Of a DNA stretch of 64,000 nt, positions 44,363-54,124 are shown one piece after another (within the stretch, counting starts at the first letter, position 1; the number at the start of each line of letters is the position of its first letter). The DNA comes from Lachnospiraceae bacterium (GTDB taxonomy: Bacteria > Bacillota > Clostridia > Lachnospirales > Lachnospiraceae): NCBI GenBank assembly GCA_017938145.1, contig JAGBCB010000013.1:62001-126000 (forward strand). The letters run 5' to 3'. A model generated the notes under the pieces. The model ran no database searches and was not told the DNA's origin. It was given only the letters and a program-made list of their open reading frames with translations. The translations under genes were made by a program, and so were the position numbers.

Positions 44363-44715
44363 ATGTTCTCCATTAGATATATTCGTGTATTCGGTCTGTT
44401 TCGTATTTTCGTATTTAGTATACCATAGTGGAGCGAAAAGTCAAGTGAAAATATAATGCTTCTAAGACAATCTATAACCACTTTGTCTTTTTACAAATAT
44501 CTAATATCGACTTTCTTTGTTATTTTTTAACTTTCCTAAAAATATGTCTTTTTCTTCATGGATTAAGTCGCCTGCCTATGTTACGTTTGATATATCAAGC
44601 GAAAGGTGTTTGTGCTAATCTAAATTTAGGTCACTTGGCTCATTGAAAATTAGGTCACTCCAAGATCTTTGTGGTATCCTTTATCTATCAAAAGATAAAG
44701 GAGGTCAGGAAAGGA

Positions 44716-46295
44716 GTGATCAATCTGGTCATAAAACAACGTATTATCCTTGCACACATCGATGGAATGAGTAACCGAGCCATTGCAAACATGCTCCATC
44801 TCAGTAAGGATACAGTTAACAAGTATGTTAACGAATACGATGAAAAACGTGATGAATTACTGCGTACTCATCCGGATATGGATGTATCAGAAATCATCCA
44901 GGCTTTTATTGAAAAGCCCACGTATGATACCAGTAATCGTGTTCCATCGAAGGTGACACCGGAACTTCTGGATGCCATCGAGAAATGTTTCCAGCTCAAC
45001 CGTGACAAGCGGCTCATGGGAATGCAGAAGCAAACCATGAAAAAGATTGATATCCATGCATATCTGCAAAAGCAAGGATTTGATGTCAGCTATTCAACGG
45101 TAAAACGTGCCACACAGTATCTGGAAACCAGACATCAGGAAGCATTTATCCGTCAGGAATATATGCCCGGTGAACTGTGTGAGTTTGACTGGGGTACAGT
45201 AAAACTTGACATTGGAAACACCGGTTATCAAAAGTATCAGATGGCTGTCTTTACATCAGCTTACGGAAACTTCCGTTTTGCAAAACTGTATCTGACACAG
45301 GATACCGCCGCTTTTCAGGAATCCCATGCAGATTTCTTTGCATACAGTCATGGTGCATTTCAAACGATGGTATACGATAACATGAAGGTTGCTGTGCGTC
45401 GTTTTGTAGGTCTTACGGAAAAAGAACCTACAGTTGCACTTACGGAACTATCCATTTATTACGGCTTCAAGTACCGCTTTTGTAACATTTGCAGCGGTAA
45501 CGAAAAAGGTCACGTGGAACGGAGCGTAGAATTCGTACGCCGAAAAGCGTTCTCAGGTCCGGAGTGTGATAAATTCAGCACCCTTGCCGAGGCGAATAAA
45601 TATCTGTTCCGGGAATGCATGAAACTTAATGCTCAGCCAATCTATGATGGTTCCATTCCGCTGGAAACATTTGAAACAGAGAAACAGTTTCTGTTTCCGG
45701 CAATGCCTAAGTTTGAAAGCTGCATAAAAAACACCGCCAAGGTGGACAAGTACTCCACCATCCTCGTTGCACGTAATCATTATTCAGTTCCGGATATGCT
45801 CTGGTAGGGAAAGTGGTTGATGTGCGGCTGTACACCGATAAGGTTGTCATATATCACGACGGAACCATCGTGGCACAACACGACAGAGAATACGGGGTGC
45901 AGGAATGGCGGATTGATATTTACCATTATCTTAGAACCCTAAAAAGAAAACCAGGTGCCCTACGTCAAAGCACTGCATTGCTTCAGTCGGACACCATGGT
46001 TAAAAACATTTACGAAAAGTATTATAGCAGAGATACTAAAACTTTTCTAGAGGTTTTAGATGTCATATATGAATACGGGGTATCCACCGTTACTGAAGCC
46101 CTGTGTAAACTTGAAAAGATTTCTCCGCTGGACATGAGTGCGGATAAGGTGGCACTTCTTTGTGCAAAGCGAGAGGAATCGTTGAAACAATCAAATATAA
46201 AAACTGACCGCTTAAGCGAAAAATCAAAAAACACGCTTTCGCAGTACGACCGCCTTCGCATGATACAAAACAGTTCAGAGAGGAAGGTGGTTTAA
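44716..46295 (+). pseudogene. istA: IS21 transposase IstA, split by a frameshift
   Basis: Start GTG at 44716 follows an AGGAGG region. The first part (44716-45807) carries the HTH (MSNRAIANMLHLSKDTVNKYV) and the DDE integrase core (CEFDWGTVKLD, VYDNMKVAV, GNEKGHVERSVEFVRR). It ends in TAG after PDMLW. The second part resumes one frame back at about 45800 (LVGKVVDVRLY) and runs to 46295. A CT dinucleotide duplicated in CTCTGG (about 45798-45801) explains the shift; intact IstA is one ORF of about 500 residues. istB begins at the next base. The transposase is therefore probably inactive. Confidence 0.88.
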
Positions 46296-47060
46296 ATGAA
46301 GGCAAAAATACAACACGAAATCCAAGAATACTGCAGTCTGCTTAAACTAAATGCAATCTGTGAACACTTTGAAGAAGCAATCAAAAGTGCTACAGACTAT
46401 GAAGGATTTCTGCACCAGTTACTCCGTATGGAAGTGGATGCTGAAGAAGAACGTGCTAAAGAGCGCAAAATCAAAGCGGCAAAATTTCCATACAGAAAAT
46501 ATATCGAAGACCTGGAACTGGATCTTCTACCGGAAGCTATGAGAAAACGGCTGCCGGAGTTGTGTTCCCTTGACTTTATCAGGGAAAGTAAAAACATCAT
46601 TATGACCGGGAATCCAGGAACAGGAAAGACACATACTGCTATCGGACTTGGAATCAAAGCCTGTGAGCAGGGATACCGTGTTCTTTACACAACAATTCCT
46701 TACCTGGTAACCGAACTGAAAGAAAGCAACAGCCAGCAAAAACTTCGTTCCTATCAGAAACGGTTTGAGAAATACGACCTGATTATCGCTGACGAATTAG
46801 GCTACATTTCCTTTGACCGTGAAGCCGCTGATTTGCTGTTTACCGTTCTTTCGCTAAGAGCATCCCAGAAATCTACCATCATTACATCAAACCTTACATT
46901 TGAACGATGGGACGAAATCTTTGGCGATGCTGCCATTACAAGTGCAATCGTTGATAGGCTTACATACAAAGCGTATCTGATTGATATGGAAGGTGATTCC
47001 TACCGGCTTCGTGAAACGCTCCGGAGCAACGGAACCGACTTCGAAACAGTAACTAAATAA
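46296..47060 (+). CDS. istB: IS21 helper ATPase IstB
   Basis: The 254-residue AAA+ protein has Walker A in MTGNPGTGKTHTA, Walker B in DLIIADELGYISFD, and the IstB sensor region ITSNLTFERWDEIFGD followed by AIVDRLTYKAYLIDMEGDSYR. It assists target selection by IstA. The ATG directly follows the istA stop, with GGAAGGTGG upstream, as in other IS21 members. The gene appears intact even though istA is not. Confidence 0.95.
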   Translation: MKAKIQHEIQEYCSLLKLNAICEHFEEAIKSATDYEGFLHQLLRMEVDAEEERAKERKIKAAKFPYRKYIEDLELDLLPEAMRKRLPELCSLDFIRESKNIIMTGNPGTGKTHTAIGLGIKACEQGYRVLYTTIPYLVTELKESNSQQKLRSYQKRFEKYDLIIADELGYISFDREAADLLFTVLSLRASQKSTIITSNLTFERWDEIFGDAAITSAIVDRLTYKAYLIDMEGDSYRLRETLRSNGTDFETVTK

Positions 47061-47206
47061 CTTCTGCACCTGTGGCAGCAAAGCTGCAGGTGCAAAGCTT
47101 GGTCCAAAGTGACCTAGTTTTCAATGAGCGTTTGACCTAATTTTCGATTGACAAATACAGATGATATACAGGCAACCAATCTGTTATGATAATTGTCAGA
47201 TTTCTT

Positions 47207-47859
47207 CTATATTCTTTCGTTACACCAAGTTACATTTCTCTTAACAATTTGAGCAGGCACACCTGCAATAACTACGTTACTCTCTTCAATACTCTTTGTA
47301 CATACTGCACCTGTCCCAACTACACTATTTGAAGAAATATGAGTGCCTTTCGTTATACAGACTCTTTGCCCTACCCACACATGATTATCAATATTAACAT
47401 CCTGCGCATGATTAATTCTATGCCCTTCTAGATTCAATACCGAATGTGAATCTCCTGTTCTAATTACAATCTCCGAAGAAAATAAACAAGACTCACCTAT
47501 TTTAATACAAGTTCCTTCCGTGCATGCTAAATGTATTTTTCCACAAAGCGAACTTCTAGCACCTACTTCTATTCTGTTTCCATCTTCCTCAATCCAAAAC
47601 TCTCCGTCTTTAATTGATACAGAATCTCCTATTTCAATTACATTGTTATTACCCTTAATCTTAAACTTGCAATTACGTAATATTGCACCTTCACTAACAA
47701 CAATGGAATTATTTTTTCCCGCACAATGAAATCTACACTTATATAAAGCTGCACCATTACATATAATCTTTGTCCCATGCACTCTAAACACATTAATAAA
47801 CGGTACATATGTTATAATGGGTAAAAGCTTACGCCACCCCCCCCCATTTTTCCAATCAT
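47207..47859 (-). CDS. Hexapeptide-repeat O-acetyltransferase, out of frame by one base at a G9 tract (possible phase-off)
   Basis: The main open frame (47207-47791, from a GTG) codes a left-handed beta-helix acyltransferase with repeats such as CIKIGESCLFSSEI and a catalytic-type His in RINHAQDVNIDNHVWVG. A better start lies upstream: ATG at 47859 behind AGGAGG. From it the frame reads MIGKM then a run of nine G (47837-47845) and stops early. One more G (ten) would give MIGKMGGGWRKLLPIITYV and join the acyltransferase in frame. This suggests phase variation by slipped-strand mispairing. It probably acetylates the nonulosonic acid or surface glycan made by the neighbours. Low-level translation from the internal GTG is possible. 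Confidence 0.8.
47837..47845 (-). repeat. Homopolymeric G9 tract inside a coding region
   Basis: Nine G on the minus strand (nine C on the plus strand), five codons after the best start of the acyltransferase gene. Such runs mutate in length at high rate and are the standard cause of phase variation in surface-glycan genes. A sequencing length error is the simple alternative. Confidence 0.85.
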
Positions 47860-47882
47860 TTCCATTCCTCCTAAAATATTTA

Positions 47883-48923
47883 TTAAACCATTTCCCATGT
47901 AAGAACTGTATCTTCTGGTAAATCCATTTTAACAGTTCTTCCTACTACAATTTCTGTAAACTTTGGAGAAATACCTGTTCCAGGTCTCTTTGGCATCAAA
48001 TCTGTTAGTTCCAATTTTTCTCCCGCCTTTACATCTCTAGTTAAAACCAAAGACCTTCTTGCCTCACGTCTTGGAATTATTTCACAAGGCAACACAGTTT
48101 TTTCATCAGAGCCCAAAACATTATCAATCCATCTGAAATTTGCAATGGCTTTTCTAAAGTCATCTGGATCTCCTGCATGATAATGATCGTTACCCGGTAA
48201 TGATTTGTCTAATGTAAAATGTTTTTCTATAACTTCAGCTCCTAATAAATATGCCGTTGCTAATGTCATCATTGTATCATCTGGTGCAACGTGATCACTA
48301 AATCCCACCCTTACATCTGGAAAGTCTTTTATTAATGTCTGAATAATTCTAAGGTTAGCATCTGCCGGGTCCGTCGGATAAGATAATACACAATGAAATA
48401 AAACAATATCCTTCACACCCGCATTTTTTAGAATTCGAACCGCTTCATCTACTTCAGCTAAATATGAAGCTCCTACCGAAATATAAACTGGTTTACCCTT
48501 TCTTCCAATGTATTCAACAAATGGAAGATTAGACAAATCAGAAGAAGATATTTTGTAAAAATCTACCATTTTTTCTAAATAATCTGCAGATGCATAATCA
48601 AAAGGGGTCGAGGTAAAATCCATACCTTTAGCATGTGTATAATCACATAATTCTTGATATTCTTTTTCTCCAAACCCATCATGCTTTAAAAATAATTCGT
48701 ACTGTGTTTTTGTAGGTTCTTTTGTTGTATCCCAATACGCAGGGGAATTTTTAGATACAATTGTTCCTGCTTTATATGATTGAAACTTCGCACAATCAAT
48801 TCCCGCTTTTGCCGCTTCGTCAATATACATTTTTGCCGCTTCAAGAGGTGTAATACTTAACGATTTTGCTGTATCATAAAAATTTACACCCATCTCTGCA
48901 ATTATATATGGCTTACTCTTCAT
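47883..48923 (-). CDS. NeuB-family nonulosonic acid synthase (sialic/legionaminic/pseudaminic type)
   Basis: The 346-residue enzyme condenses phosphoenolpyruvate with an N-acyl-hexosamine. The TIM barrel (about 1-280) has YIIAEMGVNF, KFQSYKAGTIVSKNSPAYWD, PFDYASADYL, KISSSDLSNLPFVEYIG, LFHCVLSYPT and EKHFTLDKSLPGNDHYHAGDP, the family order. An SAF antifreeze-like domain follows (about 285-346). Whether the product is sialic, legionaminic or pseudaminic acid cannot be read; the PseG-like neighbour favours the latter two. The ATG at 48923 sits behind GGAGG, 15 bases after the neighbour's stop. Confidence 0.93.
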   Translation of the reverse strand: MKSKPYIIAEMGVNFYDTAKSLSITPLEAAKMYIDEAAKAGIDCAKFQSYKAGTIVSKNSPAYWDTTKEPTKTQYELFLKHDGFGEKEYQELCDYTHAKGMDFTSTPFDYASADYLEKMVDFYKISSSDLSNLPFVEYIGRKGKPVYISVGASYLAEVDEAVRILKNAGVKDIVLFHCVLSYPTDPADANLRIIQTLIKDFPDVRVGFSDHVAPDDTMMTLATAYLLGAEVIEKHFTLDKSLPGNDHYHAGDPDDFRKAIANFRWIDNVLGSDEKTVLPCEIIPRREARRSLVLTRDVKAGEKLELTDLMPKRPGTGISPKFTEIVVGRTVKMDLPEDTVLTWEMV

Positions 48924-48938
48924 AATGCAACCTCCAAA

Positions 48939-50324
48939 TTAACTATTAATCAAACCCATAACTCGTTTACGTCCACCTCGAAGATCATGTTCTAAAAGCA
49001 TCTCCTGAAAATGTTGGCGATTCTTTTTTGATAGGTTCAAATACATCTTTAAATTGCTTTCAATAATTTCATCATCCGGATTAAGCCCAATATAAGTGAA
49101 ACCATTTTCATTGCACACAAATCCATGTTTTTCTTCACGCTTATTTTGAGCCATGGCAATAGCCGGAATACCTAAAACTGCTAACTCATATCCCGTACGC
49201 CCCCTAGAAGTAATTCCAATATCACAACTAGACATCAATTCCGGCATATTAGCAACATCATAAAACACGTCGATATGCTCATACTTATTATACTGCAAAA
49301 GTTCCTCAACGTTATGTTTTGCTCTTCCTAATACGACTACAAAATGATACTTTTGATATTCTGGCTTAGCTATCATATTTAAAAGTCTATCAGAATAGTT
49401 TTGAGGGTCCGCACCGCCAAAGGAAATGAAAACCCGTTCCACTTGTTCTCTTATTTCTATTGATTCATAAAACATAAAGGTTTTGCTTGCTATGTAATAC
49501 TTTTCTCCTGCATGTACCTGAGGAAACTCTGTATCATGATATAACGCATTAAAAACCAAGTCCGCTTTAATAATTCCTTCACCATCATCTTCAAAATTAA
49601 TTATTTTGGCTTCTGGTAATACCGAACGCAACCCTATCATATAATCAATAGAAGTTGTTAAAATGTCATTAATGAATATTGTATATTGTTTTTCTTTACA
49701 TACTTTAAAAAGTTCCGCAATACCATTTACCGGAATAAGATTATGCTTTGTATTACCAAACACTTTTACATCTGTCTGATTAGTGTCATAATATATATCC
49801 GGCTTCACAAAAAATTCATCCGCCAATTCCAAAGCTCTATATATATGTCCGATACCTCTTTTATTATTTCCATTTACATAAATTGCAACTTTCTGTTCAC
49901 TCAATGTATCTGCCACACTTCGCAAATCTTCAAAAGTATCTACATCCTGCGCCTCATTTTCTGGCAATTCATATACATCTACTACACTACCAATCCGTGT
50001 ATTTTTTGTAACAATTGATGCACGTGACACGACAAATGCCCCTGTTTCCATGTAACAAGGTGGAAGATATTGACGATTTAAACGTTCTACATAATTTGGC
50101 ACCTTTTTTCCATTTTCCTCTCTCCAAGAAAGATGCGGCGCATTTATTGCAGAAATCAATGTGTCAATATTATTCTCAATTGCATATTCTATCCCCGCAT
50201 CTAAGGTCTGTACCTTTAATGTAGGAGATGTAGGCTGCATGGTCACAATATAATCCCACTCAACCTCTTGTGGTATGGCATCATATATAACAGCATCTAA
50301 GGTAACATCATCACCACATAGACT
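48939..50324 (-). pseudogene. CMP-nonulosonate synthetase (5'-truncated) fused to PseG-like hydrolase domain
   Basis: The C-terminal 310 residues are a PseG/SpsG-type domain (GIGHIYRALELADEF, VFISFGGADPQNY, SRGRTGYELAVLG) that removes UDP from UDP-2,4-diacetamido sugars. The first 115 residues are the back half of a CMP-sialic acid synthetase (IVTMQPTSPTL, PCYMETGAFVVSR, DVDTFEDL). The CTP-binding N-terminus is missing: upstream the frame runs to 50324 (CGDDVTLDAVIYDAI) and hits a stop in the aminotransferase gene. No start or ribosome site is present; the GTG at 50246 is only the first internal candidate. The cytidylyltransferase half is broken; the PseG half could function if translated. 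Confidence 0.8.
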
Positions 50325-51030
50325 TTAACAACTGCAATTTGTGATATATTTCTTCATCATCAATTCCGTCAATGGTTCTCCATGTAAGCGCTCCGCCTTC
50401 GGCGGTTGTAAAATTCTTTACAGCGTGAAAGCTAAAAGAACTAAAGTCAGCCAAGGAGCCTGCCATTACGCCTCCTCTTTCTGCACCAAGAGAATGTGCA
50501 CAGTCAGCATTAATCGATATACGCCCCATCGCCTTCTGTATTTCATTATTAGGTTTGAATAAATTTCTTTTCCTATTTACAATTTCATATAATCTGGCAT
50601 AGTCACATGGTTTGCCTCCCAAATCAATAGGAATAATTACTTTCGTCCTTTCTGTAATTGCCTGCTCAACCTGATCATAATTTATTTCAAAAGACTCTGG
50701 CATACAATCCACGAGAACAATCTTGGCTCCCACATGTGCAATAACGGAGGCAGAGGCAGTATACGTATAGGCGCACGTAATAACTTCATCTCCCGGTCCA
50801 ATACCAAGTACCCTAAGTGCCATCTCAGCACACGCTGTTTGAGAGTTAAGACAAACGCACTTATTAACACCAATCCATTGAGCAAGGTCTTTTTCTAATT
50901 TCTTAGTTCGCGGACCAGTTGTTATCCAACCAGAGCGAAGCGCATCAGCAACTTCTGAAACTTCTAAATCTGTTATATCAGGAGGCGAAAAACCTATGTT
51001 TCTCTTTGTCAAAATACTATTTTTTCTCAT
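50311..51030 (-). pseudogene. DegT/DnrJ/EryC1 sugar aminotransferase, C-terminally truncated
   Basis: 239 residues of a PLP-dependent sugar aminotransferase (LegC/PseC type) are present: GWITTGPRTKKLE, CAYTYTASASVIAHVG, NADCAHSLGAE and the PLP-lysine K205 in SSFSFHAVKNFTTAEGG. Family members are about 380 residues, but this one ends at TGA after HKLQLLKSMW, and the next bases already belong to the truncated CMP-sugar synthetase. The small domain is gone, so activity is doubtful. The ATG at 51030 follows AGAGGG. It would have made the 4-amino sugar of the nonulosonic acid precursor. Confidence 0.87.
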
Positions 51031-51075
51031 CACATATTCCCTCTTATCATTATTTTTCTTAACCTAAGTCTTATC

Positions 51076-52224: not shown

Positions 52225-52863
52225 CTATTCCTCAAGTTTATTATTTATATCCTCAATCCAAGAATCCTTGCTGCTCTCCAACATCTGCATATACTTTTTG
52301 AAATTACTGTTGCCTAAAACACTGTCTGACTCCCCCAATTTATCTACACGCTGTCTCATATCCTCATAGTTATCTTTTGTGATATGTTTCATCACTTCTT
52401 TTATCTGGTCGGCCCTTGCTTTATAATTATCCACTCCTGTATGTTCTTTTATAAGAGGGGCATTTACCGGTTTTGCCGGAGACTTAATTATTTCATCTGT
52501 CCAGTGCTTTGAAATTACCTGCATCGTACAGGGATTGCTGAAAATGATTACCACATCTGCAGCAGAATCTAATCCGTGAAACTCATTTATTTTGCGCTTA
52601 ATATCCTCATACTGTTCGTGAGGCTTCTTTTCGGTATCACAAAAAACAAGCACCAATTCATGTGTACTATTTTGGTAACGGTTCTGGTATCTGGCCGGTA
52701 TATTTCCATTGCCACCGGCATTCTCCAGTTCCACCTCGTACAATTCATTCCAAACCTTCAGAGATTTTAGTTTTTCAAGGTATTCGTATTCTTCATTTCC
52801 TTCGCATATAATGCAAATTTTATGCTTATTTGAAATGTTAGGCAGTCTATTCGTCATCCGCAT
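52225..52863 (-). CDS. RloB-like protein (TOPRIM-type nuclease candidate)
   Basis: The 212-residue protein has the RloB family layout: CIICEGNEEYEYLEKLK with the conserved Glu (E21), VLVFCDTEKKP with D76, and VVIIFSNPCTMQVI later, as in TOPRIM-like folds. RloB and its relative AbiLii work with an ABC-type ATPase in phage abortive infection. Its start overlaps the ATPase gene by 17 bases, so the two are translationally coupled. An alternative in-frame ATG at 52857 has slightly better spacing from GGGAGTGG. Nuclease activity is not proven for the family as a whole. Confidence 0.82.
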   Translation of the reverse strand: MRMTNRLPNISNKHKICIICEGNEEYEYLEKLKSLKVWNELYEVELENAGGNGNIPARYQNRYQNSTHELVLVFCDTEKKPHEQYEDIKRKINEFHGLDSAADVVIIFSNPCTMQVISKHWTDEIIKSPAKPVNAPLIKEHTGVDNYKARADQIKEVMKHITKDNYEDMRQRVDKLGESDSVLGNSNFKKYMQMLESSKDSWIEDINNKLEE

Positions 52864-54124
52864 CCACTCCCTTCACATTGCCTTTTATACTCAAAAGAGA
52901 GTGAATCAATTCCGGATCCGGTAGTGCACCAAGAGCCCCTTTTCTATACTTTTCAATAATATCCGTTGTGTCCCGTACTCCTTGTTGCGCTGTAAAATCT
53001 GCTAAAGAATAAACATATACTCCTTCTTCATCCTTGTGCACAAACCAAATCTGTTCTTTTCTAAACATCTTCTTACAATCCATAAGATTGATATCATGTA
53101 CCGTAAAAATCATTTGTGCATTTGTATTCAACTCGTTATTAAACATTGCCACAATAGCTCTTGTCAGCTTAAAATGAATGCTACTATCTAACTCATCAAT
53201 TACAAGAATTCTTCCCTGCTCCAGTGCCTCTATTACATAACTGGCAAGAGCGGCAATCTTTTTAGTTCCGGTAGAATCAAACAACATACTCGGCACCTGC
53301 ACTCCCCGATAGGTGGATGCCAAACGGATGTGGTCCATAATGTTATCCGGGATATTTAACACCTGTTCTTCCGTTCTTAACTGTCCATCTGTTCCCAGAA
53401 AGGTGAGTTTGTCCATGTCCACATATTCAAAGTTGTCCATATACAAATCTGCATTCTTAATAAACTCTACGACCTTATGCTGCCGTTGGTTTTTGTTTTT
53501 CATAAGGTCAATAGTATGTTGCAGCGGAATATTGTTCATGTTAATAACGTCAATTTTCTCTGCTGTTTCACTAAGTATCTGCTTCATTTTTCCCAGATAC
53601 TCAAACTTGGTTGTGTCAACCAAGTAGCACAACAGATTATTTTTTGACATAACCGGAATCATCATCTGCACACTATCATCGATGCAGAAATATTCCTGAT
53701 TTACTGTGTCTTTCTTCAGCCAGCAAACTATTTTTTCATTGCCGTATTGGTCCTTTGTAATCTCGGAAAACTCTTCATAAATAAATTCATGGCTTCCGCA
53801 GCTGTATTTTAAATCAAAGGCATATTTTTTACCGTGAAGCAAAAACGTAATGCCTAGTTCGCTCACATCGCTTCCGGTAAAAATATTAAACATCAACTCA
53901 TTTTTTTTATTTGATAAAATCAATTTAATAGTTCTAATACATTTTACAAGACAAGTTTTTCCTGCGTTATTCGCTCCATAAACTCCTGCTGTTTTCAATA
54001 CATTAAAATTATTTTCCTGATGCACGTTTGATGCAAACTTTTTATTTCTCATATCTGCTTTCATCGAAAAAGCGATTTGTTCATCAAATGCAAAACAATT
54101 TTTTGCCCTAATTTCTATAATCAT
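52847..54124 (-). CDS. AAA_15/AAA_21-type ABC ATPase (RloA/AbiLi-like)
   Basis: The 425-residue ATPase has Walker A VYGANNAGKTCLV (about G50-T57), a lid region, Walker B GRILVIDELDSSIHFKL and the H-loop FTVHDINLMD. It is an OLD/RloA-type ATPase, not a transporter. It precedes and overlaps the RloB-like gene, giving the two-gene arrangement of AbiL and similar to the ATPase plus TOPRIM design of PARIS. The ATG at 54124 follows GGAGGGG. Together they are probably a phage-defence module: the ATPase senses infection and the RloB part acts. This role is inferred from families. Confidence 0.87.
   Translation of the reverse strand: MIIEIRAKNCFAFDEQIAFSMKADMRNKKFASNVHQENNFNVLKTAGVYGANNAGKTCLVKCIRTIKLILSNKKNELMFNIFTGSDVSELGITFLLHGKKYAFDLKYSCGSHEFIYEEFSEITKDQYGNEKIVCWLKKDTVNQEYFCIDDSVQMMIPVMSKNNLLCYLVDTTKFEYLGKMKQILSETAEKIDVINMNNIPLQHTIDLMKNKNQRQHKVVEFIKNADLYMDNFEYVDMDKLTFLGTDGQLRTEEQVLNIPDNIMDHIRLASTYRGVQVPSMLFDSTGTKKIAALASYVIEALEQGRILVIDELDSSIHFKLTRAIVAMFNNELNTNAQMIFTVHDINLMDCKKMFRKEQIWFVHKDEEGVYVYSLADFTAQQGVRDTTDIIEKYRKGALGALPDPELIHSLLSIKGNVKGVDADDE

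Follow-up and report, generated by a model that had tools for sequence, protein, structure and literature searches.

The genome of a Lachnospiraceae bacterium (G000) carries a gene for a putative surface-glycan O-acetyltransferase, assigned from gene context and enzyme relatives, whose start codon is separated from the enzyme frame by a run of nine G. The gene ends a nonulosonate-type sugar cluster within the window, by which we mean the whole 64-kb stretch of DNA analysed here, and the tract sits just past the start of the gene. Such an arrangement raises the question of whether the gene is a switch, a relic or an artefact of assembly. We consider it likely that the G9 tract is a slippage-prone repeat and that the gene is a poly-G contingency gene for surface-glycan O-acetylation that was caught in the OFF state. 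The features on which this reading draws are listed in the table.

Features of the O-acetyltransferase locus, in window positions
Feature	Positions	Strand	Remark
IS21-type element	44614..47148	+	Inverted repeats at both ends; 58 bases from the acetyltransferase stop
194-codon ORF of the enzyme frame	47207..47791	-	GTG is the first ATG, GTG or TTG of the enzyme frame past the tract
Beta-helix O-acetyltransferase frame 3' of the tract	47207..47836	-	Open to the stop; relative-like C-terminus
Recorded-state frame: best start, tract, early stop	47812..47859	-	15 codons and stop
G9 tract, proposed slippage site	47837..47845	-	Read from the sequence
Shine-Dalgarno-like AGGAGG	47867..47872	-	Read from the sequence
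Intact NeuB/PseI-like synthase	47883..48923	-	23 bases upstream of the 47859 start
PseF-PseG-like fusion	48939..50246	-	Lacks about the first hundred cytidylyltransferase positions
DegT/PseC-like aminotransferase	50311..51033	-	Lacks about the last two fifths

According to the initial annotation, translation from the ATG at 47859, behind AGGAGG, runs through nine G to an early stop and leaves the acetyltransferase out of frame. The coordinates proved exact and the frame reading right. Between this ATG and the AGGAGG lie 7 bases. Of two other ATG codons, the one at 47865 has a spacing of just 1 base, and the one at 47847 contributes its G as the first of the nine. Counted from 47859, the tract opens with the last base of the fifth codon, and the peptide read at the recorded length is MIGKMGGGGVSFYPL (15 residues, with the stop ending at 47812). 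The acetyltransferase frame spans 244 open codons, from 47941 to a stop at 47207, without any ATG, GTG or TTG 5' of the tract. Beyond the tract, 209 codons are open, and the C-terminus and the catalytic residues match those of relatives, so that the downstream frame is intact. As in poly-G phase-variable genes, the homopolymer lies near the start and is placed so that a change in its length switches the frame.

Under the proposed mechanism, replication slippage would alter the length of the tract and one length class in three would join the start codon to the enzyme frame. The population would then be a mix of acetylating and non-acetylating cells, the modified structure being a capsule or another surface polysaccharide, and the assembly would have recorded the OFF state, in which the start leads to the 15-residue peptide. 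By analogy with other systems, the benefit might, more speculatively, be escape from sugar-recognising phages, antibodies or lectins. Some enzyme could also be made at the recorded length, if RNA polymerase or the ribosome slips on the G tract or if translation restarts at the GTG at 47791, which comes 20 bases past the early stop; transcriptional slippage at frameshifted poly-A genes has been described in Buchnera (PMC2831843). However, no Shine-Dalgarno-like sequence was seen by eye before this GTG, and the segment between the tract and the GTG aligns loosely with the N-terminal segment of the relatives, so that a start there would probably remove part of the protein. We regard low-level expression of this kind as very improbable.

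The enzyme itself could be placed with some precision. The 194-residue ORF had no Pfam match at 0.001, and its NCBIfam matches, to WbbJ-, maltose- and galactoside-type O-acetyltransferases among others, were all far below the cut-offs. A phmmer comparison with solved structures identified OatWY of Neisseria meningitidis as the best solved relative (E 2.5e-27, residues 20-190), with NeuO of Escherichia coli K1 matching at E 3.8e-24, and the sequence relationship to both extends over the beta-helix domain. The PDB entries matched bear the title 'polysialic acid O-acetyltransferase'; we take 2wlc to be OatWY and 3jqy to be NeuO. Counterparts of the catalytic His and Trp are invariant in nine aligned sequences. 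In the ORF they are His116 and Trp139, which align with His121 and Trp145 of OatWY, and the pocket residue Trp195 of OatWY corresponds to Trp189 (the roles of the OatWY active-site residues are taken from PMC3046976). Met108 and Arg148 of OatWY are replaced by Leu103 and Gln142, respectively, and Arg197 falls just past the end of the alignment, so that the Met108/Arg148/Trp195/Arg197 set (OatWY numbering) shared by NeuO and OatWY is not seen in full in the ORF. Because Met108 and Arg148 are not conserved, we did not place the ORF in the polysialate-specific group. It is a relative of OatWY and NeuO, probably with the same chemistry and possibly acting on a different acceptor.

By itself, the G9 tract proves little. 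The genome (3.24 Mb in 72 contigs, 78% complete) contains ten G runs of at least 7 bases, namely six G7, two G8, one G9 and one G10, whereas an estimate from base composition, using the window GC of 0.44, gives ∼ 126 runs of at least 7 and ∼ 6 of at least 9. Long G runs are thus depleted genome-wide, and the two runs of at least 9 exceed the tail of the genome's own length distribution weakly at best; the number of runs alone hardly exceeds chance. On both strands of the window, the G9 tract is the sole G run above 6. Among the long ORFs of the window, GGG is the rarest glycine codon (6.1% of Gly codons) and Gly-Gly-Gly occurs 8 times in 18,035 codons. The other run of at least 9 in this genome, a G10 on contig C27 (811-820; L001/L066), is found close to the start of an open frame that, from its ORF, is not a recognised sugar gene. 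The case beyond chance rests on the placement of the tract and on the tracts of relatives, which are fewer in the second of the two homologue sets described below.

For the first of these sets we searched 397 genomes of the window's own family, including the window's, and found matches at 0.001 in 307, most of the listed ones being weak and covering only the shared hexapeptide part. The set comprises the 30 loci listed, one per genome and with the window included (L004, L005, L008-L035). G runs of at least 9 inside the gene were present at five of these 30 loci: the window, G101 (G9, 51% identity), G039 (G9, 43%), G316 (G11, 39%) and G176 (G9, 33%). The homologue in G290 has a G7 run, and a close homologue in G027 has no tract at that place. 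Under a Poisson model that was built post hoc, with the data already seen, and that assumes even spread and independence, ∼ 0.036 loci with G9 would be expected against the 5 observed (∼ 5e-10), the expectation being derived from the G9 counts of the 30 genomes (overlapping matches, which are an upper bound on tracts) at 750 bases per gene. On the same basis, 4 loci were observed against 0.035 expected when the window was removed, 3 against 0.019 among the 10 closest relatives, and 2 against 0.008 among the latter without the GC-rich G316.

The tract occupies the fifth codon in the window, different early parts of the gene in G039, G316 and G101, and the middle of the domain in G176. Positions that vary in this way along the protein make it probable that each tract arose independently. 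Three genes (G101, G039 and G176) are in frame at the tract and two (the window and G316) are out of frame, so that both frame states occur among related genes of different genera. In G316, a relative-like N-terminus (MNFLAFVKRYL...) lies in a different frame from the enzyme; reading this tract (L014, the same place as L069) as in frame was rejected, as the N-terminal part is in another frame. Along the 60 kb of the G101 contig that were read, the tract is the sole run of G or C of at least 7. The 3.5-kb locus of G039 (L012/L068, contig C52 near 128615) has a second G9, in frame in another gene, which sits where a weak relative of the same enzyme maps. Four genomes, including G000, represent the window's genus: G001 has a 28% relative with no G run of at least 7 in the locus, and no relatives were found in G002 and G003. 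G101 is the only genome of its genus, and the other three genomes of the genus of G039 have weak relatives only. A scan of genome contigs yielded one distant Bacteroidia relative with a G7 in the matched stretch, which was excluded from the counts.

The second set came from an order-wide search of 392 genomes with a nine-sequence profile, in which 63 genomes matched at 1e-20; 30 loci were listed, 26 of them from genomes absent from the first set. Only one of these 26 new listed loci has a G run of at least 9 in the gene, and this locus (G670) belongs to another family and carries the run in frame near the C-terminus. In-frame G8 runs were seen in G646 and G711, and the G10 at the G674 locus belongs to the next gene. 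None of the 10 new listed loci from the window's family, including a close homologue in G717, has a run of at least 9 in the gene. With both sets pooled, such runs are found at 6 of 56 listed loci. Thus, recurrence is clear in the first set and, at one in 26 in the second, is not general.

Phase variation, which the initial annotation had called probable, remains the best reading, as relatives carry poly-G at varied places and in both frame states. It is only partly supported, because each species is represented by one genome, the second set is weak, the upstream sugar genes are damaged and two active-site residues differ from those of OatWY.

The damage lies immediately upstream. The neuB-like gene and the acetyltransferase are probably in one transcript, given the 23-base gap. 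The match of the fusion ORF to the PseF profile begins only at position 102, and of the 380 positions of the PseC profile the aminotransferase reaches no further than 212. These two truncated ORFs are 64 bases apart and are both cut at a common junction (window 50240-50320, minus strand), which looks like an internal deletion, of ∼ 700-800 bases judging by profile lengths. With these two truncations and an IS21-type element just downstream of the acetyltransferase, the locus may be decaying. The istA gene of this element (44671-46295, plus strand) appears split over two frames near 45807. Inside the sugar locus, at 52225-54124 on the minus strand, an AAA ATPase and its partner match AbiL-type anti-phage genes (AbiLi, E 5.6e-66; AbiLii, E 2.6e-9).

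The acetyltransferase could therefore be a pseudogene of recent origin, at a sugar locus in decay: its tract would have changed length once, and the loss would have become fixed as the pathway no longer works. The truncation of DegT and PseF-PseG, the adjoining IS21-type element, the out-of-frame tract and the 25 of 26 further listed homologues that lack a tract of at least 9 all fit this view. Yet the 209 codons past the tract are open and end as they do in relatives, neuB is intact, and both frame states are represented among the five genes of the first set that carry a tract. Moreover, G000 has a second surface-sugar locus (contig C31, 22001-56000; L086/L087), where a PseG-like gene is accompanied by a full-length DegT frame (410 codons, 56% identical to the damaged one), as well as by NeuB-, cytidylyltransferase- and flippase-like genes recognised by eye from the ORF list. 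As PseG-like, DegT and NeuB-like genes are all present there, the precursors or the activated sugar might still be made. On balance, we consider a pseudogene unlikely. A nonulosonate acceptor lacks support from synteny, because no NeuB match at 1e-8 emerged when 11 window proteins were compared by BLAST with the ORFs of at least 80 codons from 14 regions of 15-20 kb around homologues.

G9 is present in 253 of the 397 family genomes and is distributed very unevenly, with none in 144 genomes and more than 100 overlapping matches in each of G149 (L052), G151, G199, G371 and G372, far above the rest. From the listed G9 places we drew 88 regions in 31 genomes (30 loci listed and 58 fetched), leaving out nine additional places in G149 and five whose contig was short or ended nearby. 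Together with eight earlier tracts, these regions gave 99 distinct tracts, 91 of which constitute the sample. By the rules of a script, 23 of the 91 tracts lie inside a G-sense ORF that runs through them, 20 have a G-sense frame that opens at the tract, 9 are in a C-sense frame and 39 fall in no class, although some of the latter are near the 3' end of a long frame (for example L107, L112, L129 and L130). The addition of L043 and L105 to the frame-opens class, under a slightly different rule, brought it to 22 candidates. By eye, poly-G as a Shine-Dalgarno sequence fits some of the sampled tracts, L057 and L063 among them; this role was rejected for the window tract, which lies past the start.

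A Pfam scan at 1e-4 covered 35 tract-bearing genes (all 23 in-frame ones and 12 of the 22 candidates, the latter by their downstream parts) and five upstream parts. Acyl_transf_3 was found in 5 of the 35. In L042 and L126 the tract splits it into two parts that lie in different frames and match adjacent sections of the profile; in L106 it is split and recognised by the N-terminal part only, and in L128 and L146 the tract is in frame. A GT2 gene (L090, N-terminal part only) and a TupA-type gene (L127, C-terminal part only) also look split, while a GT1 gene (L036) and a hexapeptide transferase (L089) are in frame. As controls we took 40 random regions, located on tract-bearing contigs in 16 of the 31 sampled genomes, which gave 88 proteins. 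No surface-sugar families appeared among the 25 of 165 control families listed, and none of the 88 control proteins was matched by phmmer with ten tract-protein queries, four of them acyltransferases. Acyl_transf_3 in 5 of 35 genes against 0 of 88 controls gives a Fisher probability of 0.0015, or 0.007 if one control is allowed, with the proviso that phmmer is less sensitive than Pfam and that L146 (G258) comes from a genome without controls.

Tracts are also found in ordinary genes (Iso_dh, the 5' region of Hsp70, MacB/FtsX and a histidine kinase), so that poly-G extends beyond surface genes and some tracts are not switches. Among the 47 of 91 tracts with a longest frame of at least 180 codons, 41 are G-sense and 6 C-sense, an excess that is suggestive only, because the use of GGG and CCC codons may differ. 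In L041 (G13) and L111 (G9), N-termini that by eye resemble signal peptides or lipoproteins enter the tract and stop, with a long frame beyond; these are possible switched exported proteins.

Assembly or consensus error is a concern for any such gene, since consensus errors concentrate at homopolymers. The true tract might have another length and the gene might simply be in frame; the read type of G000 is not stated, its assembly, in 72 contigs, is 78% complete, and the out-of-frame relatives are open to the same error. Against this, an unsystematic look at the ORF lists of the window revealed no other homopolymer-associated frame break, the split L042 comes from a genome assembled in one contig (G235), and the G tract here and those of the relatives remain even if the length is different. 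We therefore judge such an error to be quite improbable.

A broader proposal is that Lachnospiraceae randomise surface-polysaccharide O-acylation by poly-G slippage, with two unrelated acyltransferase classes, beta-helix O-acetyltransferases and Acyl_transf_3 membrane enzymes, and some glycosyltransferases having gained G9-G11 repeatedly and independently at varied points of the gene; gut commensals would thereby possess contingency genes akin to those known in Campylobacter and Helicobacter. We see this as an evenly balanced proposition, and the second homologue set does not settle the family-wide pattern. If poly-G switching of O-acylation is common in the family, clonal cells would differ in what they present to phages, antibodies and lectins, and whether such a gene looks like a pseudogene in a reference genome would be a matter of chance.

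Slippage-switched acetylation, poly-G switching and the enzyme class are all known; their use in Lachnospiraceae was not found in the literature searched. In a survey of 99 genomes, poly-A and poly-T were over-represented and poly-G was generally under-represented in prokaryotic genes, with an excess of poly-G of 7 and/or 8 bases in just 9 genomes (PMC2831843). Phase variation in gut Firmicutes has been described via DNA inversion, as in Clostridium difficile, in a 2025 review whose accessible text does not mention Lachnospiraceae, Firmicutes or homopolymeric (PMC11868660). Our literature search, with most subscription journals and bioRxiv outside its scope, yielded no report of homopolymer phase variation in Lachnospiraceae; one paper that joins the relevant terms concerns Campylobacter and the chicken microbiota (PMC6437147).

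A close parallel in enzyme and layout is neuO of E. coli K1, in which slippage in a 5' repeat decides between a full-length and a truncated protein (PMC3046976, PMC13001214). A phase-OFF genotype was reported in 42 of 64 complete K1 genomes with neuO, and NeuO improves survival against K1 phage and neutrophils and worsens it in serum (PMC13001214). Like NeuO, which is encoded by prophage CUS-3, the window enzyme is a left-handed beta-helix acetyltransferase with a proposed slippage repeat at the 5' end of its coding sequence. Unlike the heptanucleotide repeats of neuO, a prophage cargo gene, the repeat here is a mononucleotide G tract in a sugar cluster. The window enzyme shares with OatWY of N. 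meningitidis W/Y the counterparts of His121, Trp145 and Trp195, but differs from both NeuO and OatWY in having Leu and Gln in place of their common Met and Arg (Met108 and Arg148 of OatWY).

The position of the tract recalls inlA and swrA, which also have a frame-shifting homopolymer close to the start codon (PMC2831843). In its nature it resembles that of Campylobacter jejuni cgtB, where a G tract of 8 or 9 toggles a surface-glycan enzyme between full-length and truncated forms (PMC6437147): in cgtB, as in the putative surface-sugar gene of the window, a poly-G tract decides the frame. The two genes differ in that cgtB belongs to another group of organisms, encodes a glycosyltransferase rather than an acetyltransferase, and has been seen to be heterogeneous within populations, whereas the window gene is represented by one assembly.
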